Below, in pieces: positions 7,039-29,012 of a stretch of DNA of 52,528 nucleotides. The stretch is from positions 1 to 52,528 of IMG/VR virus record IMGVR_UViG_3300042485_002903; one strand, 5' to 3'. A program made the translations under genes and the position numbers. The number at the start of each line of letters is the position of its first letter. Position 1 is the first letter of the stretch. The DNA comes from a virus. The notes under the pieces were generated by a model. The model did not search any database. It was not told the DNA's origin and saw only the letters and a list, made by a program, of their open reading frames with translations.

Positions 7039-7059
7039 ATAATATAAAATATATTGATT

Positions 7060-7818
7060 ATGGACATTGAAACTGAAAAATTTATAATAGAGGAATATAA
7101 AAAAGGGTTGGGTTCTGTAATGATTTCACGTAAAGTGGGGTTATCTAAACCTACGATATTAGCTGTAATAAAAAAACACAAACTAACGAGGTATAAAGAT
7201 AGATGTAAATGTTTAAAAATAAAAGAAGTTGGTGACAAATTTACATTATCATGGACGTGTAAGATGTGTAAAAACGAATTCCAAAAAACCTCGAAAAATA
7301 AATCCGTATTGTGTCGTAATTATTACAACTCAATAAAAAAAAGTAGTAATTGTAAATCTTGTAGTTTATTATTACAGAGAGGTAAAGGAAATCCTTTTTA
7401 TGGGAAAAAACATAGTAAACAAACACTCGATTTAATTTCCAAAAAAATATCTGAAAATCCACCAAAACAAAGTTGTGTGTCTAAATTGGAAAAAAAATTG
7501 TTGAGTGAAATTAAAAATAGGGGAATAGATGCTAAAGGAACTGTGTCTATTGATAGATTTATATGTGATATTTTTATTGAAAAATACAATTTAATTATTG
7601 AATTTTATGGTGATTATTGGCATTGTAATCCCAAAAAATATAAATCTGATTATTTTCACCCGCACAAAAAAAAGACAGCAAAAGAAATATGGGACGAGGA
7701 TAAACTAAGAATTGATTATTTGAAAAAAATGGGTTATAATTTAGAAGTTATCTGGGAACGTGAATTCTCAGATGATAAAAAATTAAACAAAATTATTAAA
7801 AAATATGTCAAAAATTAG
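7060..7818 (+). CDS. Homing endonuclease with HTH, NUMOD3 and Vsr-like nuclease domain
   Basis: This 252-residue protein is a mobile endonuclease. Residues 1-45 hold a helix-turn-helix (VMISRKVGLSKPTILAVIKK). Residues about 65-110 have paired Cys (CKMC, CKSC) like a zinc ribbon. A NUMOD3 DNA-binding motif follows (NPFYGKKHSKQTLDLI). The C-terminal 110 residues match the Vsr-like PD-(D/E)XK fold: FICDIFIEKYNLIIEFYGD, WHCNP, then a W..D..R..YL..MGY.LEVIWE tail. The ATG at 7060 is preferred over the in-frame TTG two codons earlier. It overlaps the following glycosyltransferase gene by 14 nt. It lies beside, not inside, a recognisable gene, so its target is unknown. Confidence 0.8.
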   Translation: MDIETEKFIIEEYKKGLGSVMISRKVGLSKPTILAVIKKHKLTRYKDRCKCLKIKEVGDKFTLSWTCKMCKNEFQKTSKNKSVLCRNYYNSIKKSSNCKSCSLLLQRGKGNPFYGKKHSKQTLDLISKKISENPPKQSCVSKLEKKLLSEIKNRGIDAKGTVSIDRFICDIFIEKYNLIIEFYGDYWHCNPKKYKSDYFHPHKKKTAKEIWDEDKLRIDYLKKMGYNLEVIWEREFSDDKKLNKIIKKYVKN

Positions 7819-9019
7819 AGTTCTAGTAACCCCCTCAGACACGACCGGAGTTGGAAAATTCAGAAGTGTAGACCCCCATGTAATGTTACAAAATATGTAT
7901 CCAGATGACTTCCACGTGGATATTGATTATCAACCTAGAATTAATGATGTAAATTATTGGAAACAATATCAAATTGTTCATATACATAGGAATATTGGTA
8001 ATAGTTACGAACATACACCAAGTATTATTAATTTTTTGAAATCAATAGGTATTGTTGTTATTGTAGATTTGGATGATTATTGGTTACCAGGAAAGGAGCA
8101 CCCAATTCATACATTGATTGTACAAGACAAAATCCATGAGAAAATTATGGCAAATTTAAAAGTTGCAAGTTATGTTACTACAACTACAAATATCTTTGCT
8201 GATGAAATCAAAAAATTAAATAGAAATGTTGTCATTTTCCCAAATGCAATCGACCCAACTGAAAGTCAATTTAAACAACCTACTGAGAAATCAGATAGAA
8301 TAAGAATTGGTTGGTTAGGTGGTTCATCTCACTTACATGACTTGAAATTGTTAGAGGGATTTGTCTCAAAGAATATATCTTTGAAGGATAAGGTACAATA
8401 TGTGTTGTGTGGTTTTGATACAAGAGGTACAATTACTGAAATAAACCAACAAACAGGTGAAAAGAAACAAAGACCAATCAACCCTGACGAAACAGTTTGG
8501 GCGAGATATGAAGAAATTTTCACGAATAAATATGGTACAATTGATGATAACTACAAACAATTTTTACTTCAGTTTAAAGAAGAAGAATACCCAAATATAA
8601 GTGATTTACCATATAGACGAGTTTGGACTAAACCAATCAATACTTATGCAACTAACTATTCAAAGTTTGATATATCAATGGCACCAATCAAAAACCATAT
8701 ATTCAATAGAGTAAAATCTCAACTGAAAGTTATTGAGGCTGGTTTTTATAAAAAAGCATTAATTGCATCTGAAGTAGGACCTTATACAATTGACCTCAAA
8801 CACGCTTTAAGTTTTGGTAATTTTACTGATGGAAATGCTTTGTTAGTTAAGGAAGAAAGAAATCATAGTGATTGGGCAAAAAATATTAAATTTCTTGTAA
8901 ATAATCCGAATTTAATCGTAGATTTGGGTGAGAGATTATATGAGTCAGTCAAAGACAAATATGATTTAAGAAATGTTACAAGAGATAGAGCTCAATGGTA
9001 CAAATCACTAATTAAATAA
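7805..9019 (+). CDS. GT-B fold glycosyltransferase
   Basis: A 404-residue protein with the layout of GT-B (GT4/GT1-like) enzymes: an N-terminal Rossmann-like half with VVIVDLDDYWLPGKEHPIH and VVIFPNAIDP, and a C-terminal half beginning at IRIGWLGGSSHLHDL, followed by a nucleotide-sugar site region (SQLKVIEAGFYKKALIASEVGPY) where the Glu corresponds to the E of the E-x7-E motif. It probably transfers a sugar from an NDP donor in the cytoplasm. It opens the sugar cassette and overlaps the endonuclease gene upstream. Acceptor and sugar cannot be inferred. Confidence 0.75.
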   Translation: MSKIRVLVTPSDTTGVGKFRSVDPHVMLQNMYPDDFHVDIDYQPRINDVNYWKQYQIVHIHRNIGNSYEHTPSIINFLKSIGIVVIVDLDDYWLPGKEHPIHTLIVQDKIHEKIMANLKVASYVTTTTNIFADEIKKLNRNVVIFPNAIDPTESQFKQPTEKSDRIRIGWLGGSSHLHDLKLLEGFVSKNISLKDKVQYVLCGFDTRGTITEINQQTGEKKQRPINPDETVWARYEEIFTNKYGTIDDNYKQFLLQFKEEEYPNISDLPYRRVWTKPINTYATNYSKFDISMAPIKNHIFNRVKSQLKVIEAGFYKKALIASEVGPYTIDLKHALSFGNFTDGNALLVKEERNHSDWAKNIKFLVNNPNLIVDLGERLYESVKDKYDLRNVTRDRAQWYKSLIK

Positions 9020-9025
9020 AAATAT

Positions 9026-9739
9026 ATGTTAATCAAACAACCAATTACTAAGATTTTATTTATGGACATTGAAACAGTTGGGGGTTGTCCCAACTATGAT
9101 GTGTGTTCTAATTTAAACCCATCTGTGGCTGACCAATTTGACAAATATTTTGATTGGTTCTTGAAAAGGTTTCCTGAAGATAACGAAATTAAAGAAGACC
9201 AAAAAAATATTGTATTTTCAAGTAGAGCTGGTTTAGTTCCTGAATTTGCAAAAATTATTTGTGTTAGTTTTGCATTTGTTTTAGATGATGGGTCTGTTAG
9301 AAAACAAACATTTTCAAATGATAATGAACATCAATTGTTGAAAGATGTTCAAGGTTTATTAAACAAATGTGCAAAGTTAGATTTTTGGTTGTGTGGACAT
9401 AATTTGAAAAACTTTGATATCCCAATGTTGGCAAAACGTATGATTATTAATGGATTGATGCCTCCGGCACTTCTTCCATCATATGATACAAAACCTTGGG
9501 AAATCAAAGCAATTGATACCAAAGAAATTTGGCAATATGGGGCATATTCTTCAATTGGGTCACTCGATTTATTATGTTCTACTATGGATATACCAACTCC
9601 AAAGGATGGTGAGGTAAAAGGTGATAAAGTTCACTCAGAATATTGGGAAAAACAAAACATCAAGGGTATTAGTGAATATTGTGAAAAAGATGTTGATGTC
9701 TTAATTCAAATAATTAAAAAGTTAAAAGAACTCAGATAA
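9026..9739 (+). CDS. DEDDy 3'-5' exonuclease, PolB-exonuclease-like
   Basis: A 237-residue protein with all three exonuclease motifs: Exo I ILFMDIETVGG near residue 10, Exo II CGHNLKNFDIPML near residue 128, and Exo III SEYCEKDVDVLIQ near residue 218 with the Tyr-x3-Asp of the DEDDy class. The four acidic residues bind two metals for 3'-5' hydrolysis of single-stranded DNA. There is no polymerase domain, so it is a stand-alone exonuclease resembling the predicted PolB-like family of bacteria. It probably works in phage DNA repair or recombination. It sits next to dUTPase (TAATG overlap), consistent with a small nucleic-acid metabolism pair embedded in the sugar cassette. Confidence 0.8.
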   Translation: MLIKQPITKILFMDIETVGGCPNYDVCSNLNPSVADQFDKYFDWFLKRFPEDNEIKEDQKNIVFSSRAGLVPEFAKIICVSFAFVLDDGSVRKQTFSNDNEHQLLKDVQGLLNKCAKLDFWLCGHNLKNFDIPMLAKRMIINGLMPPALLPSYDTKPWEIKAIDTKEIWQYGAYSSIGSLDLLCSTMDIPTPKDGEVKGDKVHSEYWEKQNIKGISEYCEKDVDVLIQIIKKLKELR

Positions 9740-10416
9740 TGCAAGGAAATATGAAAGATTTGTTTAAACAAGTCGATGATTTACAAAATTATTTAAAAGG
9801 AAAGGAAGATGAAATAGATTACAATATTATCTATGAAACTTATGGAGTTGACATTAAACAACTAGAACAAGAAATGTTGAATTATGTCCCCAAACAAATA
9901 CTTGGTTACACTAAACTTAATCCCGATGCTATTGACCCTAGTTACAATTATATAAGTGACTCAGGCTTTGACTTGTACTCAACAGAAGAAATTGTTGTAA
10001 ACCCATTAGGTAGAGCTTTAATACCAACAGGATTGGCCTTTGACATCAAAGATGGTTATGAAATACAAGTAAGGTCAAAAAGTGGTTTAGCAATAAATCA
10101 GGGTTTATTTGTATTAAATTCACCAGGAACTGTGGATTGTTTTTCTGAAGATATGAAAATTTTAACTATAAATGGTGAAAAACATATTAAGGATTTAAAA
10201 ATAAATGATATAGTATTTTCATTCAATGAAAAAAGTTTAGAAATTGAAAAAGATATTGTTCTTAAAATTTTTGACACTAATGTACAAGATATATTGAAAA
10301 TTGAGACTGAAGAAGGTGTACTTGAGGTAACCCCCAATTCAGAAATTTATACAAATAAAGGGATTGTTTTGGCCAAAGATTTACAAGAAAATGATGAGAT
10401 AATTGTATTTTTTTAA
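9739..10416 (+). CDS. dut: dUTPase N-terminal half fused to split-intein N-fragment (IntN)
   Basis: A 225-residue protein with two parts. Residues 1-133 are the first part of a trimeric-type dUTPase with a roughly 55-residue N-terminal extension, motif 1 (DSGFDLYS), motif 2 (VRSKSGLA) and the beginning of motif 3 (SPGTVD). Residues 134-225 are a 92-residue intein N-fragment starting at Cys134 (CFSEDMKILTINGEKHIKDL, block A) and ending IIVFF-stop. The block B region reads EVTPNSEIYTNKG, with Ser where the TxxH His is usual. The missing half of dUTPase is encoded at 11324-11626 after an IntC. Protein trans-splicing would give a 197-residue enzyme with motif 3 restored as GTVD-CGYLGE. dUTPase hydrolyses dUTP to dUMP, keeping uracil out of DNA. 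Confidence 0.9.
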   Translation: MQGNMKDLFKQVDDLQNYLKGKEDEIDYNIIYETYGVDIKQLEQEMLNYVPKQILGYTKLNPDAIDPSYNYISDSGFDLYSTEEIVVNPLGRALIPTGLAFDIKDGYEIQVRSKSGLAINQGLFVLNSPGTVDCFSEDMKILTINGEKHIKDLKINDIVFSFNEKSLEIEKDIVLKIFDTNVQDILKIETEEGVLEVTPNSEIYTNKGIVLAKDLQENDEIIVFF

Positions 10417-10425
10417 CCAAGATAC

Positions 10426-10432
10426 TATTTAT
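10426..10432 (+). promoter_or_regulatory. TATTTAT late-type promoter element inside the broken dut locus
   Basis: TATTTATCAATAAAG lies in the 33-nt gap between the IntN stop and the endonuclease ATG (17 nt before it). It matches the TATTTATnAATAAA form found before virion genes, so the endonuclease may be separately and late transcribed. Phage homing endonucleases with their own late promoter are known from T4. Confidence 0.45.
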
Positions 10433-10449
10433 CAATAAAGATAATAAGT

Positions 10450-11343
10450 ATGTCAGTAAAATGTAAAATTTGTGGGATTGAAAAACAATATTCAATTGTT
10501 GAACATTTAAAATTTGAACATAAATTAACCTCAAAAGAATACAAAGAGTTATATCCAGGTAATTTAGTTAAATCAAAAGAATATGCAACAATATTTTCAG
10601 AGAAACAAAAAACTAAATGGAGTGATACTGAATATAAACAAAAAATGACAAAATCTAGACAAGTATCCCATAATAAATCTGAATTCAAAAATAAAATGTC
10701 TAATATTATAAAAAAGAGACATAAAGAAACACCCGAAATCTATTCAGGTTTTACCAATTGGCATAAAAGTGAAAAATTTAAAGAGTGGGTCAAATCTGAA
10801 GATAGAATAAAAAAAATATCAAAAACATCAAAAGAAAGATGGGAAAATGAGGAGTATAGACAAAAAACAATCAAATCAATCGTAAAAGTGTTGGGTGATG
10901 GTAGATGTGAAAAAGGAAAAGAGTTTAGGGAAAATATGTCAAAAATTATTTCTGAATTATATAGTACAGGTAAATTAAGTAATACAAGTAACAAATATAA
11001 AACAGGAAAATATGAATCAAAGGAAAATGAAACCTTTTTATATTCATCCTCATATGAATTGGAAACTATGATTTTTTTTGACTCAGTTAATTTTATAAAA
11101 AGATGGACGAACAAACATGGTATTCGAATAAGATATTTTTATAATGGACTACACAGAAACTATGTTCCTGATTTTTACATTGAATTAGCCAATGGTAAAA
11201 TCTTTTTAATTGAACTAAAGGGGTGGGAAACTGAGGAAGTATTAGTAAAACAACAATTTGCATTAAAAGAATACCCAAACTATAAATTGTTTTACTCAGT
11301 TGAAGAACTAAAAAATTTTATATATGAAAACAACGAAGATTAA
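10450..11343 (+). CDS. Free-standing PD-(D/E)XK homing endonuclease between the split-intein halves
   Basis: A 297-residue protein. Residues 1-40 form a C2H2-like zinc finger with a MucR/Ros-like look (CKICGIEKQYSIVEHLKFEH, then LTSKEYKELYPG). Residues 45-190 are Lys-rich helices with repeated short segments typical of DNA-binding NUMOD-like linkers. The C-terminal region holds a nuclease core, YVPDFYIELANGKIFLIELK, that is PD-x(n)-ExK of the PD-(D/E)XK superfamily. Codons 10450-11343 are in the same frame as IntN but follow a stop. The 3' end overlaps the IntC start by 20 nt in another frame. Its position matches the published fractured-gene arrangement, in which an endonuclease gene separates split intein halves. 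Confidence 0.8.
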   Translation: MSVKCKICGIEKQYSIVEHLKFEHKLTSKEYKELYPGNLVKSKEYATIFSEKQKTKWSDTEYKQKMTKSRQVSHNKSEFKNKMSNIIKKRHKETPEIYSGFTNWHKSEKFKEWVKSEDRIKKISKTSKERWENEEYRQKTIKSIVKVLGDGRCEKGKEFRENMSKIISELYSTGKLSNTSNKYKTGKYESKENETFLYSSSYELETMIFFDSVNFIKRWTNKHGIRIRYFYNGLHRNYVPDFYIELANGKIFLIELKGWETEEVLVKQQFALKEYPNYKLFYSVEELKNFIYENNED

Positions 11344-11626
11344 AAAAATAACATCAGAAAAAAAACAAACTTATGATATAACAGTAAGTAATAATCATAA
11401 CTTCTTTTGTAATAGTCATTTGATACATAATTGCGGTTATTTGGGTGAAGTAAAAGTTATAATTTTTAATACGAATTCAGACCAAGTAACAATAAAAAAA
11501 GGAATGAAAATTGCACAAGCAGTTTTATGTCCAGTAATAAACGGAAAATATGTTGATTTGGAACTAAAGAAAGATTTAGGTCAAAAAGACAGAGGTGATA
11601 ACGGATTTGGCTCAACAGGAATATGA
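11324..11626 (+). CDS. dut: Split-intein C-fragment (IntC) fused to dUTPase C-terminal half
   Basis: A 100-residue protein. Residues 1-36 are an intein C-fragment with block F (YDITVSNNHNFF) and block G (SHLIHN), ending in the His-Asn pair needed for C-terminal cleavage, followed by Cys37 as the +1 nucleophile. Residues 37-100 finish the dUTPase: the rest of motif 3 (CGYLGEVKV), motif 4 (KKGMKIAQAVLCPV) and motif 5 (DRGDNGFGSTGI). The lengths of IntN (92) and IntC (36) are typical of natural split inteins. Its stop overlaps the ATG of the next glycosyltransferase (ATGA). Alone it would be inactive because motifs 1 and 2 are on the other polypeptide. Confidence 0.9.
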   Translation: MKTTKIKKITSEKKQTYDITVSNNHNFFCNSHLIHNCGYLGEVKVIIFNTNSDQVTIKKGMKIAQAVLCPVINGKYVDLELKKDLGQKDRGDNGFGSTGI

Positions 11627-13524
11627 TTACTATAATATATTGTACAAGAACTTCAAATGAAGAACATAAAAAACATTTAATTAAAACTTCTGGTTTACAT
11701 AACAAGTTGGAAGTTATTGAAATCGTTAATAATGGTGAATCTCTAACCTCGGCATATAATAGAGGTTTATCACAAGCCTCAAATAGTATAGTTGTTTTCT
11801 GTCATGATGATTTGACTATTGAAACTAATCAATGGGGTAACAAACTACTCAAAATTTTTGATAGAAATTTAGATTATGGAGTAGTTGGTGTTGCGGGTAC
11901 AAAGTTTTTGTCCACATCGGGTAGATGGTGGGAAGATATGAAAAAAATGTATGGAAAAGTAGCACATACACATAATGGTAAAACTTGGTTATCATCATAT
12001 TCACAAGATTTGGGGAGTAATTTAGAGGAAGTTGTTGTTGTTGATGGATTGTTTTTTGCTATTGACAAAAATAGAATAAAAAAAACATTCAATGAAGAGT
12101 TTCAAGGATTTCATTTTTATGATGTATCTTTTTGTTTTGATAACTACTTGTCGGGTGTTAAAATAGGTGTAACAACAGAGATTAGAATTAATCATAAGTC
12201 GATTGGGATGACTAATTCTAAATGGGAGGAAAACAGAATTAAATTCACATCAAAATATGAAGATAATTTACCTGTATTCTTAAATAGAAAAATACACCCC
12301 AACGAGAAATTAAAAATATTAATTTCAACCACTAATTTTAATGGGGAATCAAATAAAGAAAAATTCATTTTCGAATTTGTGAAGTCACTTAAAAACAAAG
12401 GTCATCATTTGTACATATGTTCAAATTTGGGAAATAGAATAACAAGTTTAGCTAAAAGAGAAGGAATAAATTTAAGTTCCATAAATGAACCTTTCGGTTA
12501 TAAATTAGGTGATGGTAAATGGCAAATTAACACACCAAATGGTCTTCAACCAACACAAATAAATCAGTTGTATAAAATAAAAGAAATTGATTTTGATGTA
12601 ATTCAACTTTTCGATGATGAATTAACTGATTTTATTCAAAAGTGTTACCCAACAACACCAATTGAAAATTTTGAGTCGATTGGTAATGATAGTTTTTTAT
12701 TTGACTTGAACTGGTTTCGTAATTTGAATAACATAGATAACATAATTGAAAAATATAAAAACAATATAACCCAACAAGTTTCTGAACAATTTAAACAAGA
12801 GAACTATCAAAAGAGTTTGAAATTTTTAACAGAAAAATACGTTAAAAATTTAGGTCCTCTAGTTAGTATCATTATCCCTTGTTTTAACGATGGTCAATAT
12901 TTACCTGAGGCAATAAAATCGGCTAAAGATTTAACATACTCAAATAAAGAAATTATCGTTATTAATGATGGGTCGAGTGATACAAAAACTTTGGAAATAT
13001 TAAATAATTTAGATAGTGATATTAAAGTTTTACATCACGAAAGAAATAAAGGACTTTCTGCAGCAAGAAATACAGCTATTAAATCCTCACAAGGATATTA
13101 TATATTACCACACGATGTTGATGATACATTTGATAAAAACTATTTGTTATTTGCAATTTATGAAGCTGAGAAGAATGAGAATTTGAGTCCAATATATTGT
13201 GATACAAATCATATTGGTTTTATACAAGGTATGGAAAAAAGACCTGAATGGTCATTGAGTAGATTAAAAAGAGGGCCTTTTATTGTAAGTTGTTCTTTGT
13301 TCAGAAAAAAAGCTTGGGACGATGTGTTAGGTTATGATGAATCTATGAAAGGGTGGGAGGATTATGATTTTTGGTGGAGAATAGGAAATAATGGGTATAA
13401 GGGAGTTAGAATACCTCTACCATTATTTAACTATAGACACATTAGACCAAGTATGATTCAAAACATCAAAAATGACGAAAGAAAATTATACGATTATATT
13501 ATGAATAAACCTCTATCAAAATGA
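11623..13524 (+). CDS. Two-domain glycosyltransferase (StrF-like plus GT2)
   Basis: A 633-residue protein. Residues 1-225 are a GT-A type domain related to the StrF-like group (MITIIYCTRTSNEEHKKHL, VFCHDDLTI, VVVVDGLFFAIDKNRI). Residues about 230-400 form a middle region with a GT-B-like rhythm (KILISTTNFNGESN, HLYICSNLG). Residues about 412-633 are a classic GT2 domain: LVSIIIPCFNDGQYLPEAI, VINDGSSD, and HDVDD at the DxD position, then GWEDYDFWWR. Such multi-GT proteins assemble glycans without a separate complex. It overlaps both neighbours by 4 nt. Donors and acceptors are unknown. Confidence 0.8.
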   Translation: MITIIYCTRTSNEEHKKHLIKTSGLHNKLEVIEIVNNGESLTSAYNRGLSQASNSIVVFCHDDLTIETNQWGNKLLKIFDRNLDYGVVGVAGTKFLSTSGRWWEDMKKMYGKVAHTHNGKTWLSSYSQDLGSNLEEVVVVDGLFFAIDKNRIKKTFNEEFQGFHFYDVSFCFDNYLSGVKIGVTTEIRINHKSIGMTNSKWEENRIKFTSKYEDNLPVFLNRKIHPNEKLKILISTTNFNGESNKEKFIFEFVKSLKNKGHHLYICSNLGNRITSLAKREGINLSSINEPFGYKLGDGKWQINTPNGLQPTQINQLYKIKEIDFDVIQLFDDELTDFIQKCYPTTPIENFESIGNDSFLFDLNWFRNLNNIDNIIEKYKNNITQQVSEQFKQENYQKSLKFLTEKYVKNLGPLVSIIIPCFNDGQYLPEAIKSAKDLTYSNKEIIVINDGSSDTKTLEILNNLDSDIKVLHHERNKGLSAARNTAIKSSQGYYILPHDVDDTFDKNYLLFAIYEAEKNENLSPIYCDTNHIGFIQGMEKRPEWSLSRLKRGPFIVSCSLFRKKAWDDVLGYDESMKGWEDYDFWWRIGNNGYKGVRIPLPLFNYRHIRPSMIQNIKNDERKLYDYIMNKPLSK

Positions 13525-14180
13525 TGAAAACTTGTTGTATTTTATATCACTCAAATATATTTTCAATCTACAAAAAAGAGTGGATTCAAAAGTGTTTAGA
13601 TACAATTTTAAACCAAACTTATACTAATTTTGATATTTTTGAATTGAATTATGGTGACGATAGTTCAAATTTGAAAGAAATATTTACTATCAATAAAAAA
13701 CATTTTTTTTTCAAAGTTAAGATGAACAATCATGCCGAAGCAATGAATTTTCTTCTTGACTTAGTGTTCAAAGAAGAAAACTATGATATTTGTTTTAATA
13801 TAAATTTAGATGATTTTTATACTCTAAATAGATTTCAACAACAAATTGACATTTTAAATGGAGATATTGATATAGTTTCCTCAGAATATGTTTTTACAAA
13901 AGAAACAAATGGGATTTATAGTTTTAGTGCCCCAGTTGGTTTAGGAAATCACGATTTAGAAACTTTATTTAATATGGATATCACACCATTAGCTCACCCT
14001 TGTGTTGCATATACCAAAAAGTTTTGGTTAGAATTCGGTCCTTATATACCTCAAGAAATACCAAGAGAAGATAAAAATCTTTGGATTAGAAGTTACAGAA
14101 ATGGTGCTAAATTACATATTATAAAAGAACCTTTGCTATTTTATAGAATTCATGATAAACAAGTAAGTAAAACTAATTAA
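13521..14180 (+). CDS. GT2-like glycosyltransferase
   Basis: A 219-residue protein with a short GT-A fold: CCILYHSNIFSIYKKEWI at the N-terminus, IFELNYGDDSSNLKEIF, the metal-binding region CFNINLDDFYTLNRFQQQ, and a C-terminal EDKNLWIRSYRNGAKL-type segment that carries the catalytic Glu-Asp. It is near the minimum size for GT2. It overlaps the two-domain GT upstream by 4 nt and is followed by a GT11-like gene 1 nt later, so these three probably act on the same glycan. Confidence 0.7.
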   Translation: MMKTCCILYHSNIFSIYKKEWIQKCLDTILNQTYTNFDIFELNYGDDSSNLKEIFTINKKHFFFKVKMNNHAEAMNFLLDLVFKEENYDICFNINLDDFYTLNRFQQQIDILNGDIDIVSSEYVFTKETNGIYSFSAPVGLGNHDLETLFNMDITPLAHPCVAYTKKFWLEFGPYIPQEIPREDKNLWIRSYRNGAKLHIIKEPLLFYRIHDKQVSKTN

Positions 14181-14181
14181 T

Positions 14182-14958
14182 ATGGTTTCAAGTTTTTTAC
14201 AAGGTGGGTTAGGAAATCAAATGTTTCAAATAGCTGCAGCATATGCGTTAGCTTTAAGAAATAATGATAAAGCAGTTTTTGATTTTGATAAATGTTTCAC
14301 ACCTTTACAAGGGTTCAAATCTACGAAGTATCAAAACACTTTATTCAAAAAAGTTACCAATATAAATAATTTTACCCCCTCCAAAATTTATTATGAACCA
14401 AAATTCAGTTATACTGAAATCGAATATCATAATAATATTCTTCTAAATGGATATTTTCAGAGTGAGAAATATTTTGAGGATTTTAAAAATGAAATTATAA
14501 ATTTATTTGATTTTAATGAAGATATTATAAATGAACTTACAAACTTCATAAATGAAATAAACTCCAATAATTTACCTACAAGTGTTATACATGTCAGACG
14601 TGGGGATTATCTTTTGAATTCTGAATTTCACCCACCTTGTTCAAACGAATATTATTATGAGGGGATTGATATTTTAGGTAAATGTTGTTATATTTTTATA
14701 TCCGATGACATCAATTGGGTAAAAAATGAGTTCATAGGTGAAAACTTTTTTTATTATAGTGGTAGTAATGAAATTGTGGACTTGACCCTAATGACTCTTG
14801 TAGATAACATAATAATTTCGAATAGTAGTTTTAGTTGGTGGGGGGCATACCTAAATAAAAATCCAAATAAAAAAATAATAACACCAAAAAAATGGTTCGG
14901 GATAAAAGGACCAAAAGAAACCGAAAATTTAATCCCAACAACATGGTTCAAAATTTAA
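14182..14958 (+). CDS. GT11-family alpha-1,2-fucosyltransferase-like protein
   Basis: A 258-residue protein with the GT11 signatures: GGLGNQMFQIAAAYALA at residues 8-24 (GDP-fucose-type nucleotide site), VIHVRRGDYL near residue 134, and ISNSSFSWWGAYLN near residue 213. GT11 enzymes transfer fucose, usually alpha-1,2, from GDP-fucose. The HxRRGDY arginines are present, so it looks active. No GDP-fucose synthesis genes are seen nearby, so the donor would have to be made by the host. It is the first of three GT11-like genes in the cassette. Confidence 0.85.
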   Translation: MVSSFLQGGLGNQMFQIAAAYALALRNNDKAVFDFDKCFTPLQGFKSTKYQNTLFKKVTNINNFTPSKIYYEPKFSYTEIEYHNNILLNGYFQSEKYFEDFKNEIINLFDFNEDIINELTNFINEINSNNLPTSVIHVRRGDYLLNSEFHPPCSNEYYYEGIDILGKCCYIFISDDINWVKNEFIGENFFYYSGSNEIVDLTLMTLVDNIIISNSSFSWWGAYLNKNPNKKIITPKKWFGIKGPKETENLIPTTWFKI

Positions 14959-14977
14959 AAATTAAAAATAAAAAAAA

Positions 14978-16276
14978 ATGGAAATTCAAAATTTAGTAGA
15001 CAATTTATCAGAGTACTTGAAGGATAATAAACCAAAATACTTATATAATCAGAAATTTGAAGCAGGTAGAGACCAAGTATTATATTCTGGACCATATTGG
15101 GACGAAAAAGAAATTATGGCAGCAATAAAATCTTTAATTTTTGGTAAGTGGGTTGTGACAGGCGAAAACGTTAGTAAATTCGAATACTATTTTAGTAGAA
15201 AATTTGGAGTTAAGTTTGCTCATATGGTCAACTCTGGTAGTTCTGCTAATTTAGTTTTAATTGCCGCACTTAAAAAATATTTTGGCTGGAATGATGGAGA
15301 TGAAATAATCGTTTCTCCTGTTGGGTTTCCAACAACCATTTCAACAATTGTTCAAAATAATTTAGTTCCAGTATTTGTTGATATTGAATATGATACCCTA
15401 AATTTTGACTTGACTCAAATTGAAAGTAAAATTACTGAGAAAACTAAAGGTATTTTTGTTTCACCAGTTCTAGGTAATCCTCCGAATATGGATTTTTTAT
15501 CTGAACTATGTAAAAAACATAATATACAATTAATTGGTGATAGTTGTGATAGTTTGGGGTCTAAATGGGATGGAAAAGATTTAAGTGATTATTATGTTGC
15601 TTGGTCAACTTCATTTTATCCTGCACATCATATTTCTACTGGTGAGGGTGGAATGGTTTGTACAAATAACCCTGATATAAAAAAACTATTTGTTTCTTTT
15701 TCGTGGTGGGGACGAGATTGTTATTGTGTTGGTTCGGCTAATTTACTCTCTTGTGGTACTTGTGGTAAAAGATTTGATAATTGGTTAGAATCCTATGATG
15801 GTATTATTGACCATAAATATGTTTTTACAACAATGGGATATAACTTGAAACCTATGGACTTACAAGGTGCAATAGGAATAGTACAATTAGAAAAATTTGA
15901 CGAGATAGATAGTAGAAGAAAATCAAATAAGAAAAAAATGGAAGACATCATTACAAAATATGTTGATGGTGTAAAAGGGGTTATCCAATTAGATAAAGCT
16001 GATACATGTTGGTTTGGAACACCACTAGTTTGCAACTCAAAAATTATTAAAGATAAATTAGTTTCATTCTTGGAGGAAAATAAAATACAAACTAGAAATT
16101 ACTTTGCGGGAAACATTCTATTACATCCAGGATATTCACACTTAGATTCTTTAGACAAATATCCTTTAGCTAATACAGTATTAGATAAAGTTTTTTTCTT
16201 GGGTGCTGCACCACACTATGATGATAAAGTGTTTGATTATGTTAAAAAAGTATTTGCGGAAAAGTGGACGAACTAA
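14978..16276 (+). CDS. rfbH: RfbH/ColD-type sugar 3-dehydrase (PLP-dependent, DegT family)
   Basis: A 432-residue DegT/DnrJ/EryC1-family enzyme. The segment SFYPAHHISTGEGGMV near residue 213 has His at the position where aminotransferases carry the PLP-binding Lys; this substitution marks the 3-dehydrases RfbH (E1) and ColD, which remove the C-3 hydroxyl of an NDP-4-keto-6-deoxyhexose. Also present are NSGSSANLVLIAALKKYFGW and a Cys-containing region (SWWGRDCYC, SCGTCGKRFDNW) and HKYVFTTMGYNLKPMDLQGA, as in RfbH. RfbH uses an iron-sulphur reductase partner (RfbI) that I do not see here, so either the host supplies it or the enzyme works as ColD does. The result would be a 3-deoxy sugar. Confidence 0.85.
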   Translation: MEIQNLVDNLSEYLKDNKPKYLYNQKFEAGRDQVLYSGPYWDEKEIMAAIKSLIFGKWVVTGENVSKFEYYFSRKFGVKFAHMVNSGSSANLVLIAALKKYFGWNDGDEIIVSPVGFPTTISTIVQNNLVPVFVDIEYDTLNFDLTQIESKITEKTKGIFVSPVLGNPPNMDFLSELCKKHNIQLIGDSCDSLGSKWDGKDLSDYYVAWSTSFYPAHHISTGEGGMVCTNNPDIKKLFVSFSWWGRDCYCVGSANLLSCGTCGKRFDNWLESYDGIIDHKYVFTTMGYNLKPMDLQGAIGIVQLEKFDEIDSRRKSNKKKMEDIITKYVDGVKGVIQLDKADTCWFGTPLVCNSKIIKDKLVSFLEENKIQTRNYFAGNILLHPGYSHLDSLDKYPLANTVLDKVFFLGAAPHYDDKVFDYVKKVFAEKWTN

Positions 16277-17634
16277 AAGTTTTAATATTAGGAGATGGAT
16301 TGTTGGGGTCTGAATTAGAAAAACAAACTAATTGGGATTGTATATCAAGAAAAAGAAAAAATTTTTCTATTAATACCTTTACCCATACAATCCCACCAAA
16401 AAAATATAACACAATTATTAATTGTGTTGCCAACACGAACACTTATTTAGACAACCGAGAACCACATTGGGAAACTAATTGTGTTTTTTTGAAAAATTTA
16501 ATAGAGTTTTGTAATACTAATCAAATAAAACTAATTCATATTTCTTCTGATTATGTTTATACATTTTCAATTGAAAACGCAAGTGAAGAAGATGTTCCTG
16601 TTCATTGTAGGAACTGGTATGGTTATACAAAATTATTAGGTGATGGTTTGGTCCAATTAATATCAAACGATTATTTGTTAATAAGATGCACACATAAACC
16701 AAAACCATTTCCATATGAAAAAGCTTGGATTGACCAAGTTGGTAATTTCGATTATGTTGATAAAATTGGTCAAATTATTATACAATTAATATACGAAAGA
16801 AAAAATGGAGTTTATAATGTTGGAACTGAAACTAAATCTATGTTTGATTTAGCACAACAAACTAAAAATGTAATTCCTATCAGTTCTCCTGATTATGTAC
16901 CTAAAAATACAACGATGAACATAATGAAACTTGAAAACAAACCCTTTTTTTCAATTGCAATTCCCACCTATGGATATAATGGTAGAGGTTCTGAATTTTT
17001 AGAATTTAGTTTAAAAATTATCCATAATCAAACATTCAAGGACTTCGAGGTTATTATATCCGACCATAGTACTGACGATACTATACTAAACGTTGTAAAC
17101 AAGTGGAAAAATAAATTAACTTTGAAATATCAAAAAAATGAAAATGGTAGAGGTATAATATCACCAAATATCAATAATGCAATGACTTTGTGTGAAGGTA
17201 AATGGATTAAAATCTTATTCCAAGATGATTTTTTGTATGATGAAAAATCACTAAAAATTCAACATAATTTTATTACGACCTCAGGTGATGATTTAAAATG
17301 GTTAATGACAAAATTCTACCACAGTAATGATGGCGTAGCATTTTATAGATTATACCATCCAATTTGGAACGATAGGATATGGACAGGTAATAATACTATG
17401 GGTTGTCCTAGTGGATTAACGTTAAAAAATGAAAACTTGATTTTTTTTGATGAGGGATTAAATTGGTTAATGGATTGTGATTATTATCAAAAAATGTTTT
17501 TAAAATATGGTGTTCCTAAAATTTTGAACGAAATCACAGTTGTCAATAGAACATGGGGTAATAGATTAACAGATACTACACCTCAAAGTTTAAAAGATAA
17601 TGAATTTAAAATGTTAAAAGAAAGATATGATTGA
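16264..17634 (+). CDS. Fusion of RmlD-like SDR and GT2 glycosyltransferase
   Basis: A 456-residue two-domain protein with a GTG start overlapping the end of the 3-dehydrase gene by 13 nt. Residues 1-220 resemble the RmlD-type dTDP-sugar reductases (KVLILGDGLLGSEL for the NAD(P) site, IHISSDYVYTF and YGYTKLLGD for the Ser/Tyr-x3-Lys triad). Residues about 226-456 are a GT2 domain (PFFSIAIPTYGYNGRGSEF, VIISDHSTDD, LFQDDFLYD). The pair could reduce a 4-keto sugar and transfer it. In most gene clusters these activities are separate proteins, so the fusion suggests substrate channelling. Confidence 0.8.
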   Translation: MDELKVLILGDGLLGSELEKQTNWDCISRKRKNFSINTFTHTIPPKKYNTIINCVANTNTYLDNREPHWETNCVFLKNLIEFCNTNQIKLIHISSDYVYTFSIENASEEDVPVHCRNWYGYTKLLGDGLVQLISNDYLLIRCTHKPKPFPYEKAWIDQVGNFDYVDKIGQIIIQLIYERKNGVYNVGTETKSMFDLAQQTKNVIPISSPDYVPKNTTMNIMKLENKPFFSIAIPTYGYNGRGSEFLEFSLKIIHNQTFKDFEVIISDHSTDDTILNVVNKWKNKLTLKYQKNENGRGIISPNINNAMTLCEGKWIKILFQDDFLYDEKSLKIQHNFITTSGDDLKWLMTKFYHSNDGVAFYRLYHPIWNDRIWTGNNTMGCPSGLTLKNENLIFFDEGLNWLMDCDYYQKMFLKYGVPKILNEITVVNRTWGNRLTDTTPQSLKDNEFKMLKERYD

Positions 17635-18286
17635 TTTACCTAACATTACTTTAATTGCACTAACTAGTGTCCGTTTACCACAAACAATAAAAGCTTTAGA
17701 GTATAGTTGTAAAGGTATTAATTTTGGTAAAGTTAAAATAGCTTCAGATATAAAACCTGATAACTTACCTGACTTTATAATTCACGAATACACAGAAAAA
17801 AGTTCCAATATTGATGAATGGAACTACAATATTATTTATAATTTGACTAAACACATTGATACTGAATTTGCACTACTCATACACGACAATGGTTTTGTTG
17901 TACATCCAGAATCTTGGAGGAATGAATTTTTGGATTATGATTATATTGGTGCCCCTTGGCCATTACCTAAAGATAATTTTTCATACAGAGATATAAATGG
18001 AAACATCATTAGACAAGGAAATAGTGTCTCTTTAAGAAGTAAAAAACTATTAGATATACCCATAAAACTTAATTTAGAATGGAAACCTTTTTATGGTTTT
18101 ACAAATGAGGATGGTTTTATTTGTGTAAACTATCGACACAAATATTTGGAAGAAGGTTGTAGGTTTGCTGATATTGATGTTGCTAAATATTTTTCTAGAG
18201 AAACAGATTTACCCGAAAATGTGAGTATTAATCCTTTTGTTTTTCATAACTATTCAGGTACTAATAGCAAATATATCAAGTTTTAA
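17627..18286 (+). CDS. DUF5672-like putative glycosyltransferase
   Basis: A 219-residue protein with features of DUF5672: ALLIHDNGFVVHPESWRNEF, then YDYIGAPWPLPKDN, a GNSVSLRSKKLLDI loop and a C-terminal PFVFHNYSG. This family is found in glycan clusters of bacteria and phages and has a GT-A-like fold by prediction. It overlaps the upstream fusion gene by 8 nt. The substrate is unknown. The assignment is from motif memory and not from a search. Confidence 0.7.
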   Translation: MIDLPNITLIALTSVRLPQTIKALEYSCKGINFGKVKIASDIKPDNLPDFIIHEYTEKSSNIDEWNYNIIYNLTKHIDTEFALLIHDNGFVVHPESWRNEFLDYDYIGAPWPLPKDNFSYRDINGNIIRQGNSVSLRSKKLLDIPIKLNLEWKPFYGFTNEDGFICVNYRHKYLEEGCRFADIDVAKYFSRETDLPENVSINPFVFHNYSGTNSKYIKF

Positions 18287-18288
18287 AA

Positions 18289-18960
18289 ATGGTAAAAGAG
18301 ATAGTTATTTCAGCATATGATAAACCATTGGATTGGATTAAAGAAATTAGTCCTGAAATAAAAATTACGATTTATAGAAAAGGAAATGTTGTTCCGATTC
18401 AAAAAAACGAAATCAGTTTGAATCCAAACAGAGGAAGATGTGTACATACTTTTTTTAACCACATTTACTTGAACTATGAAAACTTGTCGGATTATACTTT
18501 TTTTGTCCAAGATTTTCCATTTGACCATTGGGGTAACTTATTAGAGGTTTTGAATTCCGATATTAGTGAAATAGATAACAATGCTTCATTAATTATTGAT
18601 GGGTATTTTGGATTTCATAATAACAATATCGGCACGGCATGGAAAATGAATCCATCAAATCAATTTGGTGGTGGATTTGTTTTATCTTGTCAATCTAATG
18701 GTTTTCCCCAAGATTTAAGTTCAAATATTAATGTAAACCAATACTGGTCAATTTTATTTTCAGATGTACACACACCCCCAAACCAATACGAATTTATACC
18801 AGGAGGACATTTTGTAATAACAAAAGAACAAGCTTGGGTTAGGAGTAAAGAATTCTATAAAAAAATTGTTGAGTTTCTTTTAGAAAATGAAAATAGTCCT
18901 TGGATAATTGAAAGGTTAGAGTGTTATATCTTCAACAAAAATTTCGAAACCATACTTTAA
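18289..18960 (+). CDS. DUF3431-like putative glycosyltransferase
   Basis: A 223-residue protein with the DUF3431 pattern: VISAYDKPLDWIKEI near the start, a strand-turn ITIYRKGNVV, GRCVHTFFNHIYLNYENL and YTFFVQDFPFDHWGN, followed by a C-terminal PGGHFVITKEQAWVRSKEFY segment typical of sugar-transferase-like DUFs. It lies 2 nt after the DUF5672-like gene, and these two probably act together. A 38-nt A-rich gap follows before the next gene. Confidence 0.7.
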   Translation: MVKEIVISAYDKPLDWIKEISPEIKITIYRKGNVVPIQKNEISLNPNRGRCVHTFFNHIYLNYENLSDYTFFVQDFPFDHWGNLLEVLNSDISEIDNNASLIIDGYFGFHNNNIGTAWKMNPSNQFGGGFVLSCQSNGFPQDLSSNINVNQYWSILFSDVHTPPNQYEFIPGGHFVITKEQAWVRSKEFYKKIVEFLLENENSPWIIERLECYIFNKNFETIL

Positions 18961-18998
18961 TAAAATAACAAAAATAAAAAAATATATAAAATAGGTTA

Positions 18999-19928
18999 AT
19001 GATAACAACAAACTTGACTGGAAATTTTGGAAATCATATGTGGTATTATACCATATGTCGTTTAGTTGCCGAAAAAAATAACTACGAATGGGGAGTCAAT
19101 CCGAAACCAACACACGACTATTACAATGGTATGAATCAATTTTACTTTTTAGATGTTAATTTTGGTAAAGAAGTTTTTGTTGATGGAAAAAACGAAAGAG
19201 GTCTAAACAAGTATCAAGGAATTCCGAATGAGTATTATGACTTTCACAAAGAACATATCTATAATGGTGATAGTTGTTTAATTAATATGTACGATGAAAA
19301 TGTATGGAATGTTAGTGATAATACTATGGTTCATCTTATTAGTCAATCCGAAGATTATCTTTTAGAAAGAAGAAATGATGTAATTAGTTGGTTCAAATTT
19401 AAAAATGAATACGAAAATTCATACACCGAAAAACTTAAAGAATTAGGTATTGTACTTGATGATAATTTATGTGTGATTAATTTTAGAGGTGGGGAATATA
19501 AAAATGTGATGAATTTAATACCAAATAAAAAATACTGGACTGATTCAATTAATCAAATGTTGACAATAAACCCAAATATGAAATTCATAATTGTAAGTGA
19601 TGACCCCAATTATGCAAAAGGGTTCGTAGGTAATTTTCCTTGTTACCATTTTGATATTGGTTTTGACTTTTATTTGGTAAACAATAGTAAATATTTGATA
19701 ATCGCTAATTCTAGTTTTAGTTGGTGGGCGGCTTGGTTAAATACTAAGTCCAAGTTAACTATAGCACCAATTTATTGGGCAAAACATAATGTAAGTAATG
19801 GTTACTGGTCTTTAGGTGATTCGTATTCTAAGTTTTTTTCTTATATGAATAGGGAAGGTGATTTGGTCAATTATGAGGAATGTAAAAATAACGCAATAAA
19901 CTTTTATAAAGAAAACAACTTATTATAA
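18999..19928 (+). CDS. GT11-like glycosyltransferase with altered donor motif
   Basis: A 309-residue GT11-like protein: TTNLTGNFGNHMWYYTICRL at the N-terminus and IIANSSFSWWAAWLN near residue 238 match the family, but the HxRRGDY motif is replaced by INFRGGEY, so one Arg and the Asp are lost. The enzyme may use a different donor or be a specialised member. It is longer than the GT11 at 14182, with an insertion between the N-terminal site and the RGGEY motif. It overlaps the following GT17-like gene by 1 nt (TAATG). Confidence 0.7.
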   Translation: MITTNLTGNFGNHMWYYTICRLVAEKNNYEWGVNPKPTHDYYNGMNQFYFLDVNFGKEVFVDGKNERGLNKYQGIPNEYYDFHKEHIYNGDSCLINMYDENVWNVSDNTMVHLISQSEDYLLERRNDVISWFKFKNEYENSYTEKLKELGIVLDDNLCVINFRGGEYKNVMNLIPNKKYWTDSINQMLTINPNMKFIIVSDDPNYAKGFVGNFPCYHFDIGFDFYLVNNSKYLIIANSSFSWWAAWLNTKSKLTIAPIYWAKHNVSNGYWSLGDSYSKFFSYMNREGDLVNYEECKNNAINFYKENNLL

Positions 19929-20824
19929 TGAAATTATACGATTGCTTTCAGTTTTACAATGAATTAGATTTATTAGAAATTAGATTGACACTTTTGTACG
20001 ATGTTGTTGATTATTTTGTGATTAGTGAAACAACTAAATCTCATGCTAACAATCCCAAAAAACTATTTTTTGAAGAAAACAAAAGTATGTTTGACAAATT
20101 TTCTGACAAAATCATACATATTAAACATAATTTTCCTGAAGACATTTTAAATATGGGAACAAAGATAGGAAATGATAAATATACACTTACGTATAATAAA
20201 ATTTCCGAAAGATACGATATCGAAGAAAATGAAGGAGAATTGAAGAAACACCCAACATTCTGTCGAGATTATCTCCAAAAAGAATTTATTAAGTTTGGTC
20301 TTATGGATTGTGAGGATGACGACTTAATTATGATTTCAGACTTAGATGAGATACCAAAACCTGAAATTGTTAAAAAAATACGAGAAAATAACTTATACAA
20401 TCATTGTTTAATGCAAGATTGTTTTTATTATTATATAAATCTTTTAGCTCATACTAATTGGTATGGAAACTATATAGTAAAATTTTCTGACACTAAAGAA
20501 GTATCATTAACCCATCTTAAGAACAAAAGAGTCAATTTTGAAAAGATATTCGATGGTGGTTGGCACTTGAGTTTTATGGGTGGAGTGGAAAGGGTAAAAA
20601 CAAAAATTCAGAACTACGCACATCAAGAATTTAATAATGATTTTTACCTCAACAATGTTGCTACAAAAATCAAAAATGGTGTTGATGTTTACAATAGGTT
20701 TGGGTATTCTGAACCATTTCAGGAGTTCTTTTTTTCTAAAATGAAAGAAACTAGTTTGACACAATATCCTACAGAAATGTTAGATTTAATCAAAGAAAAA
20801 TATAATTATTTAATAAAACAATAA
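19928..20824 (+). CDS. GT17-like N-acetylglucosaminyltransferase-type protein
   Basis: A 298-residue protein with GT17 hallmarks: LYDCFQFYNELDLLEIRLTL at the N-terminus, a CRDYLQKEFIKFGLMDCEDD segment followed by LIMISDLDEIPKPEI (the DxDE motif), and GWHLSFMGGVERVKTKIQNY near the C-terminus. Eukaryotic members are beta-1,4-mannosyl-glycoprotein GlcNAc-transferases; many bacterial and viral members are uncharacterised. It starts at the A of the upstream TAATG. The transferred sugar is not determinable from sequence. Confidence 0.8.
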   Translation: MKLYDCFQFYNELDLLEIRLTLLYDVVDYFVISETTKSHANNPKKLFFEENKSMFDKFSDKIIHIKHNFPEDILNMGTKIGNDKYTLTYNKISERYDIEENEGELKKHPTFCRDYLQKEFIKFGLMDCEDDDLIMISDLDEIPKPEIVKKIRENNLYNHCLMQDCFYYYINLLAHTNWYGNYIVKFSDTKEVSLTHLKNKRVNFEKIFDGGWHLSFMGGVERVKTKIQNYAHQEFNNDFYLNNVATKIKNGVDVYNRFGYSEPFQEFFFSKMKETSLTQYPTEMLDLIKEKYNYLIKQ

Positions 20825-20835
20825 AAAAAAAACTA

Positions 20836-21672
20836 ATGAAAATTATTATAACAGGTGGATTGGGTTACATAGGAACTGAACTTTGTAAATTATACTCAGG
20901 TGAAGCAAGATACAAAGAAATTATTGTTATTGACAACAGATTTATTTCCGAAAGAGTTAAACAACTACGAGATTGGGGTATAAATTACATTAATTGTGAT
21001 GTTACGGATACTGATACAATGAAAAGGTTGTTAGAAAATTGTGATATTGTTTTTCATTTGGCAGGTACAACCGATGTTGCCTACACTAAAACTGAATCTA
21101 ATGACGAAAAAGATTTAACAATTAAAAGAAATGGTGTTGATGCAACAAAAGTTCTACTCAAAAACTTGTCCAATAGTACAAAGTTGGTGTTCCCTTCTAC
21201 ACATGTTGTATATGAGGGCTTAACTGAAACAAAATTTGAGATTTCTGAAGAATTCCCACCTTGTCCTATGTTATCATATGCCAAAGGTAAATATGAGTCT
21301 GAACAAGATATTATTAATTCTGATTTAAACTATCTTATTTTAAGATTAGGTACTGTTTATGGTTATTCTACCGATACGATGAGGATAAACATTATGCCAA
21401 ATCTTTTTTCTAAAATTACCTCATCTAATGGGACAATTAAATTGTTTTCTGGTGGAGTTCAATACAAAAGTTTAGTTAACATATTAGATGTTGTGAGAAG
21501 TATGAAATTTTTAGCAGAATCGGAAATGAACAAAGAAATTTTTCATATAACTAACGAAAACTTAACTATAAAGGAGGTCGCCGAAATTTGTAAAAAAATA
21601 AACCCTAAAGTTAATATTTTAGAAACAAACGATGAAATCCCTAATTTCTTTACAATATTGAAAACTCAATAG
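20836..21672 (+). CDS. NAD-dependent sugar epimerase/dehydratase (extended SDR)
   Basis: A 278-residue extended SDR with the Rossmann motif IIITGGLGYIGTEL at residues 3-16, a Ser motif (VFPSTHVVYEG) and the catalytic Tyr-x3-Lys (SYAKGKYESEQ). Members act on NDP-sugars as 4-epimerases, 4,6-dehydratases or 4-reductases. It lies 11 nt after the GT17-like gene and 5 nt before the cupin/methyltransferase fusion, so it probably works on the same keto sugar. Confidence 0.8.
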   Translation: MKIIITGGLGYIGTELCKLYSGEARYKEIIVIDNRFISERVKQLRDWGINYINCDVTDTDTMKRLLENCDIVFHLAGTTDVAYTKTESNDEKDLTIKRNGVDATKVLLKNLSNSTKLVFPSTHVVYEGLTETKFEISEEFPPCPMLSYAKGKYESEQDIINSDLNYLILRLGTVYGYSTDTMRINIMPNLFSKITSSNGTIKLFSGGVQYKSLVNILDVVRSMKFLAESEMNKEIFHITNENLTIKEVAEICKKINPKVNILETNDEIPNFFTILKTQ

Positions 21673-21677
21673 ATGAA

Positions 21678-23351
21678 ATGGTAACCAACTGGAGTGAAAA
21701 GAAACCAGTTCAAGAGTTAGAATATTTCATCGAAGGAAACAAAGAATTTGTTGATAGTAGAGGAAGAATTTTAAACTATGAATTGACTGAACCAATTAAT
21801 TTAATTGGTTATATAGAATCCAAAGCTAATACAATTCGTGCAAATCATTACCATCCAATTCAAGAACAAAAATGTTTATTAATCTCAGGTAAATATGTAA
21901 GTGTAACCAAAGACTTAGCTGATTCAAATTCAGTAATCGAAACTAGAATCGTTAATGCTGGTGACTTATCAGTAATTCGACCAAATGTTGCACATACAAT
22001 GGTTTTTTTAGAGGATTCTGTTTTTTTAAATTTAGTTCGAGGTGAAAGAGAGCATGAAAATTATGGTATCACTCATACTATACCTTATATTTTAGTGGAT
22101 GAAAAGTTAAAAGAAATAATCGTATCTAACTACAAGTATCAATGTAGAGTCTGTAATAATCAAAAACTAAATGATGTTTTGTCTTTAGGACTTTCTCCTT
22201 TGGCAAATAACTTATTAAGTTCAGAATCAGACATTGAAAAACTATATCCTCTTGAAATAAAACATTGTAACAAGTGTGAAAATGTACAATTATCTATTGT
22301 TGCCCCTCCAACAGAAATGTTTAGTAACTACTTGTATACTTCGTCAACAACACAAACCTTCAAAAAACATTTTCAAAATGCAGCAAAACAATATGTCCAA
22401 GACTTTAAATTAAATTCAGATTCTATTGTTGTTGATATTGGTTCAAATGATGGTGTCTTCTTAAGTCCTTTGAAAGAAATGGGTATAAAAGTTATTGGTA
22501 TTGAACCTGCAACAAACTTGGCTAAACTATGTAACGATAATGGTATATATACAATAAATGATTTTTTTAATTCAAATGTTGTAAATACAATTTTAGAAAA
22601 TTTTGGAAAAGTGTCTCTCGTTACAGCATCAAATGTTTTTGCACATAGTGATGAATTGGATGACATTGTAAATGGTGTCAAAAAAATATTAAAGAGTGAT
22701 GGTACCTTTATAGTTGAAGTACAATACTTCATTAAAACAATGGAAGACCTAACATTTGACAATATATATCATGAACATGTAAACTATTGGACTATTACTT
22801 CTCTAATTAAATTCTTTGATAGGTTTGGTTTATTTCTTAACAGGGTAGAGGAAATTAATACACATGGTGGTTCTATTAGGGTGTATGTAGGTAAAAACAA
22901 CAACAAAGATTTTTCTGTAGAAAAATTTATAAAGTTGGAACAAGACTTTGGAATCCAAAATAAAACAATTTATAAAAATTTTGAGGTCAAGGTTTCTGAA
23001 ATAAGAACAAATGTCAGAGAAAATTTTAATAAGTTGAGAAACAAATATAATAAAATTGTTGGTTATGGTTCACCAGCTAAAGCTACCACAAGTTTAAACT
23101 ATTTTGGAATTGATTCAACTTACTTAGATTATATTGTCGAAGATAACAAACTTAAAGTTAACAAAATTATACCTGGAATTCGAGTTCCAATAAAAAGTAT
23201 CAATGAACTTAAGACAGATAAACCTGATTTAGTGGTTGTTATGGCTTGGAATTTTTTTGATGAAATATTAAAAAATAACCAAGATTTAGTGGAAATGGGG
23301 GTTAAATTTATTTCCATAATGGATTTACATAAAAAAGAATTGTTTAAATGA
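21678..23351 (+). CDS. Fusion of sugar cupin and C-methyltransferase (TylC3-like)
   Basis: A 557-residue protein with two enzymes. Residues 1-145 are a cupin with NHYHPIQEQKCLLISGKYV and VIRPNVAHTMVFLEDSV, of the type found in sugar 3,4-ketoisomerase or 3,5-epimerase relatives. Residues about 153-557 are a TylC3/NovU-like C-methyltransferase: a four-Cys zinc site (CRVCNN and CNKCEN), SAM motif I VVDIGSNDGVF near residue 252, DNIYHEHVNYWT, and a C-terminal domain with YGSPAKATTSLNYFG. Such enzymes methylate C-3 of a keto deoxyhexose to give a branched sugar. Together with the 3-dehydrase this points to a C-methylated deoxysugar. Confidence 0.85.
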   Translation: MVTNWSEKKPVQELEYFIEGNKEFVDSRGRILNYELTEPINLIGYIESKANTIRANHYHPIQEQKCLLISGKYVSVTKDLADSNSVIETRIVNAGDLSVIRPNVAHTMVFLEDSVFLNLVRGEREHENYGITHTIPYILVDEKLKEIIVSNYKYQCRVCNNQKLNDVLSLGLSPLANNLLSSESDIEKLYPLEIKHCNKCENVQLSIVAPPTEMFSNYLYTSSTTQTFKKHFQNAAKQYVQDFKLNSDSIVVDIGSNDGVFLSPLKEMGIKVIGIEPATNLAKLCNDNGIYTINDFFNSNVVNTILENFGKVSLVTASNVFAHSDELDDIVNGVKKILKSDGTFIVEVQYFIKTMEDLTFDNIYHEHVNYWTITSLIKFFDRFGLFLNRVEEINTHGGSIRVYVGKNNNKDFSVEKFIKLEQDFGIQNKTIYKNFEVKVSEIRTNVRENFNKLRNKYNKIVGYGSPAKATTSLNYFGIDSTYLDYIVEDNKLKVNKIIPGIRVPIKSINELKTDKPDLVVVMAWNFFDEILKNNQDLVEMGVKFISIMDLHKKELFK

Positions 23352-27241: not shown

Positions 27242-27255
27242 AAAATTATAAAAAT

Positions 27256-29010: not shown

Positions 29011-29012
29011 AA

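Follow-up and report, generated by a model that had tools for sequence, protein, structure and literature searches.

How can a phage obtain dUTPase from a gene that is broken within the active site of the enzyme? dUTPase is a DNA-quality enzyme, and in the trimeric dUTPases the Asp of motif 3 is catalytic. The question is raised by a 52.5-kb virus record of IMG/VR (IMGVR_UViG_3300042485_002903), here called the window and entered as L003 in the comparisons, in which three plus-strand open reading frames (ORFs), spanning in order positions 9739–11626, divide a dUTPase gene directly after this Asp. The arrangement is very probably a mobile split-intein module lodged in the phage dUTPase gene, whose trans-splicing would restore the sole dUTPase.

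The first ORF (9739–10416, 225 aa) encodes a dUTPase N-extein of 133 aa with motifs 1, 2 and the start of motif 3, ending in GTVD (9739–10137), followed by an intein N-fragment (IntN) of 92 aa (10138–10416) that begins with Cys1 (Cys134 of the ORF), carries TPNS, with no His, as its block B and ends at a TAA. After a spacer of 33 bp (10417–10449) comes a free-standing homing-endonuclease-like gene of 297 aa (10450–11343), composed of a C2H2-type finger, a helical middle and a PD-(D/E)xK nuclease; it lies in the frame of IntN, with the single TAA between them. The third ORF (11324–11626, 100 aa) overlaps the nuclease gene by 20 bp, its own ATG lying within the end of that gene, and encodes an intein C-fragment (IntC) of 36 aa (11324–11431) with blocks F (YDITV..NNHNFFCN) and G (LIHN) and then the dUTPase C-extein (11432–11626, 64 aa plus stop), which consists of the +1 Cys and 63 more residues holding the remainder of motif 3 and motifs 4 and 5. 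The predicted spliced product has 133 + 64 = 197 aa. A first-pass annotation of the window had given the same coordinates and sizes, which the ORF coordinates reproduce exactly, and had set the break at GTVD; that position stands, with the correction that motif 3 itself is cut (GTVD / CGYLGE), the end of it lying in the C-terminal part beside motifs 4 and 5.

The same annotation had taken the outer ORFs for halves of a dUTPase joined to intein fragments, and profile searches largely bore this out. PF00692 matches both halves above its cut-off and in complementary register (profile positions 4–63, E 1.9e-6, and 71–129, E 3.1e-12), motifs 1–5 of the trimeric dUTPases are all present, and the N-extein matches PDB dUTPases with E values down to 2.4e-19. 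On the intein side, TIGR01443 (intein_Cterm) matches IntC above its cut-off, and TIGR01445 (intein_Nterm) gives a weak match to IntN, below its cut-off. Since the motif-3 Asp is catalytic, the insertion breaks the active site, which could be restored only by ligation (or by fragment complementation), and the two halves are the sole dUTPase matches in 13 carrier contigs of 60–354 kb. In the proposed mechanism, the three overlapping or adjacent ORFs would yield dUTPase-N with IntN, the nuclease, and IntC with dUTPase-C; IntN and IntC would associate, and class 1 trans-splicing, using Cys1, the +1 Cys and the terminal Asn, would ligate Asp133 to Cys and, because the junction lies within motif 3, rebuild the active site. 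The sequence evidence strongly favours the predicted joining of the halves in trans into a dUTPase of 197 aa. In co-infecting phages, dUTPase alleles that lack the insert are the probable target of the nuclease, which would cut them at or close to the site, whereupon repair would copy the whole 1.29-kb module (homing).

Intein residues and the block-B histidine

IntN matches Hint domains, and IntC gives weak PDB matches to the split inteins gp41-1 (E 0.006) and NrdJ-1 (E 0.01). Residue conservation was assessed in 17 aligned IntN/IntC pairs. The features of a class 1 intein are found at position 1 (Cys), at the terminal Asn (Asn36), in block F (Asp18 and His25) and at the penultimate His (H35, in 16 of the 17 pairs); apart from H35, these residues are invariant, as is the block-B Thr, and the +1 residue is Cys or, in L141 and L182, Ser. 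The exception is the block-B TxxH signature, of which only the Thr is kept, the His being replaced by Ser in 8 of 20 IntNs and by Thr in the other 12. A class 3 intein was ruled out by Cys1 and the F:4 Asp. In L141 (6001–6294), the IntC ends in GN, not HN, before its +1 Ser, a divergent splice-junction chemistry within the same family; in L279, which was not among the aligned pairs, Ser replaces the F-block His. The ratio of nonsynonymous to synonymous substitution rates (dN/dS) does not exceed 0.22 in IntN and IntC and is 0.10–0.27 in the nuclease (unsaturated pairs throughout), and it is low in both exteins too. IntN, IntC and the nuclease are under purifying selection.

With the block-B His missing, the first acyl shift needs compensation, and the pair would have to splice despite this loss. 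The Tko CDC21-1 intein is naturally without this His and compensates with a Lys, and a degraded pseudogene also lacks it (PMC7765530); in an engineered intein, bulky −1 extein residues are able to compensate (PMC6333167). The split inteins of the dUTPase gene might form a clade permanently without the block-B His, in which the N-terminal junction is activated via the flanking extein, possibly by Asp(−1), a catalytic residue of dUTPase. This proposal is rather unlikely; if it were true, one residue would serve both the splicing chemistry and the chemistry of the host enzyme. The −1 residue is indeed Asp in every carrier, an invariance that proves nothing because dUTPase needs the Asp anyway.

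Distribution, empty sites and mobility of the module

IMG/VR was scanned with each part of the locus and then with alignments. Nine contigs, each from a different IMG dataset, contain the 1,888-bp block with 0–1 mismatches, and this recurrence, together with the same arrangement in diverged relatives, shows that it is not an assembly error. About 20 distinct lineages of uncultured phages have the arrangement, all broken after the motif-3 Asp, with dUTPase parts that are 35–100% identical. Across carriers the IntN stop is TAA or TGA; the spacer from IntN to an intact nuclease gene is 5–58 bp and often Shine-Dalgarno-like; and the nuclease and IntC ORFs usually overlap by 14–44 bp (in L124 and L126 by 92 bp if the first ATG is taken as the start; in L139 there is a 5-bp gap). 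A separate IntN ending in a stop and a separate IntC with its own start interrupt the host gene, with a free-standing endonuclease gene between the halves in all but L110, L112 and L122. A continuous intein in related genomes, named in the first-pass annotation as evidence that would contradict it, was found at none of the loci of six viral scans, and the frame of IntN relative to IntC is 0, 1 or 2 depending on the lineage, so that no single recoded ORF accounts for both. Module copies were found neither in bacterial or archaeal genomes nor, as whole modules, in annotated phages.

Fourteen members of the nuclease family share C5, C8, H19 and H24 in a finger-like arrangement (with ROS/MUCR matches in three), and E203, P240, D241, E255 and K257 are invariant among them down to 34% identity. 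The Pfam family TnsA-like_N matches 9 of the 14. The nuclease domain is well predicted in the structure model, and its top PDB match in Foldseek is TnsA (1t0f; probability 1.00, E 2.6e-3, 14% identity, TM-score about 0.3). Both motif and fold are those of a TnsA-like PD-(D/E)xK nuclease. An EDxHD/Vsr homing endonuclease was excluded by the conserved pattern E..PD..ExK and by the lack of any match when the window nuclease was searched with the Vsr profile. Relatives of the nuclease occur in Bacillus phage SP-15, where the gene lies within the interrupted mcp, and in phage Moonbeam, where it stands free.

The site is cleanly empty in about 40 related phage dUTPases, whose Asp is followed by Asn, Ser, Gln, Glu or Phe and never by Cys. 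In the dUTPase tree the window groups with the empty L040, L012 with the empty L038, and L014 with the empties L078 and L080; carriers are interspersed with empties, and a single clade of the nine closer carriers is rejected (approximately unbiased (AU) test, p 0.007). In several close carrier pairs the synonymous divergence of IntN, nuclease and IntC is clearly below that of both exteins, as for example in L028/L097 (0.26–0.31 in the module against 0.60–0.72 in the exteins; differences near 0.7 are saturated, so that only the direction was used), which indicates that all parts of the module came in together, later than the divergence of the host genes. The carriers are not one clade, and the dUTPase sequence on either side is older than the module; the module therefore moves as a unit, and the pattern of this mobility fits homing.

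Related phages present a natural series of states. In L190 (2513–3870) the dUTPase gene is intact and is followed, 53 bp downstream, by a nuclease gene that shares 59% identity with the one in carrier L139. The nuclease of L113 is frame-broken, possibly by assembly error. In L110 (5330–6288), L112 (1–847) and L122 (488–1419) the nuclease is mostly deleted and both split halves are intact and separate, while a 3' remnant of the nuclease is left immediately ahead of the IntC start and running across it. This standing variation fits a homing cycle of gain, decay and loss, in which splicing would have to be kept and the nuclease would not. Conservation and selection, the alleles with an empty site, the mobility of the module and the lack of any other dUTPase on the searched contigs all speak for the fractured-gene reading put forward in the first-pass annotation; that annotation was silent on the missing block-B His, on the nuclease being of a type other than EDxHD/Vsr and on the split alleles without nuclease.

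Competing explanations for the interrupted gene

Some observations weigh against a trans-spliced dUTPase. The TIGR01445 match on IntN reaches 17.7 bits against a cut-off of 24.5 (E 0.0054); the block-B His, usually essential, is missing from all 20 IntNs; the N half is modelled with low confidence (predicted local distance difference test, pLDDT, 64); and the carrier contigs may be incomplete, with a second dUTPase possibly elsewhere. The general loss of this His, and the persistence of split halves without a nuclease, would also suit a docking clamp, in which non-splicing Hint fragments pair and hold dUTPase-N and dUTPase-C together as an enzyme of two chains. Docking alone, however, would not preserve residues needed only for the chemistry, and none of the 17 pairs departs from Cys1, Asn36, a +1 nucleophile or the Asp and His of block F, while a single one lacks the penultimate His; empty alleles, moreover, never have the +1 Cys, so that a Cys at this position goes with the intein. 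Such a clamp is very unlikely. Still less probable is that a mobile element has inactivated the dUTPase gene, which is now decaying, as the interrupted active site might suggest, given that dN/dS is low in exteins and intein halves, that all dUTPase motifs are kept, and that the arrangement occurs in many lineages with no replacement dUTPase found.

The remaining alternatives would dispense with two separately made proteins. Readthrough of the stop, or a frameshift, could produce one polypeptide with an ordinary cis intein and an embedded endonuclease, and the window, where the nuclease shares the frame of IntN and one TAA stands between, would permit it; but across lineages IntN and IntC stand in relative frames 0, 1 or 2 and the stops are TAA or TGA, and the nuclease has its own ATG, often with a Shine-Dalgarno-like site, and an ORF overlapping that of IntC, which leaves this explanation hardly any chance of being right. 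Removal at the RNA level, by an intron of group I or II that harbours the nuclease, is brought to mind by the nuclease relative within the interrupted mcp gene of phage SP-15. It has next to no probability: no Rfam match was found in window positions 9000–12500, conserved intein protein blocks stand on both flanks of the nuclease, and removal from the RNA would make IntN and IntC needless.

Genomic context, related systems and significance

The window that carries the split-intein module also holds T4-like portal, Gp23 capsid and PhoH genes, the capsid protein being nearest to those of an uncultured phage, a Microcystis phage and Flavobacterium phages. A second homing-endonuclease-like gene (NUMOD3, MTES_1575/Vsr-like nuclease) lies at 7054–7818, just upstream of a glycosyltransferase-like gene, and an ORF at 43591–44271, HNH-like by eye and without a Pfam match, adjoins the Gp23 major capsid gene. 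Between dUTPase and PhoH, a long run of genes (11623–29777) encodes what appear by eye to be glycosyltransferases, epimerases, aminotransferases and fucosyltransferases. The 353,772-bp contig of L138 (G011) has six more intein N-terminal matches, two of them in one 1,424-aa open frame, and is, to judge by its sequence, an intein-rich large phage.

By its arrangement, the dUTPase locus is a fractured gene with a split intein, a kind of which gp41-1, gp41-8, NrdJ-1 and IMPDH-1 have been described (Dassa et al. 2009, as cited in PMC7090010 and PMC6892783). It shares with them an IntN ending in a stop, a free-standing endonuclease gene and an IntC ORF in a phage-type DNA-metabolism gene, as well as the canonical split position and an IntC resembling those of gp41-1 and NrdJ-1. 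It differs in having dUTPase as its host, in lacking the block-B His and in its TnsA-like PD-(D/E)xK nuclease with a C2H2 finger, whereas the nuclease of the first fractured genes is of the EDxHD family, EDxHD/Vsr (as cited in PMC12350094). Among annotated phages, the intein closest in sequence (36% identity) is that of UvsW in the cultured Salmonella phage S16, which can likewise be read as fractured, into gp114 (helicase-N with IntN), gp114.1 (endonuclease-like) and gp115 (IntC with helicase-C), but which has another host gene and keeps the block-B His (TGNH). This S16 locus (L311, HQ331142.1 104626–107352) and its relatives are annotated as separate helicase genes and are apparently an unrecognised fractured gene. 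The PolB split intein of Pseudomonas phage MIJ3 (PMC6892783) also has a separate endonuclease gene between its halves, although the nuclease is HNH, the host gene is PolB and the block-B His is present (TEDH). Tko CDC21-1 (PMC7765530, PMC6333167) shares with the dUTPase IntNs the natural absence of this His; it is, however, an intein of archaeal CDC21, outside the fractured genes, and its compensating Lys has no established equivalent in the dUTPase IntNs. Tn7 TnsA (PDB 1t0f), the closest solved fold to the nuclease domain and of PD-(D/E)xK type, is a remote relative and a transposase subunit.

A dUTPase intein was found neither in the searchable literature, which leaves most subscription papers outside, nor among 50,697 annotated phages, and the limited scope of that literature makes the novelty of the host gene provisional. 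On this footing, dUTPase as a host gene, the type of nuclease and the block-B variant are new. dUTPase joins the fractured genes, and its nuclease is of a type for which the accessible literature gives no precedent among them. The graded states, from the empty site and the nuclease beside an intact gene to the full, decaying and nuclease-less alleles, allow ideas about how split inteins arise and what becomes of them to be tested. Where accessible reviews document one functional case without the block-B His (Tko CDC21-1), the dUTPase genes of these phages hold about 20 diverse split inteins that lack it, and these would be useful for the study of the splicing mechanism and possibly as orthogonal ligation tools.
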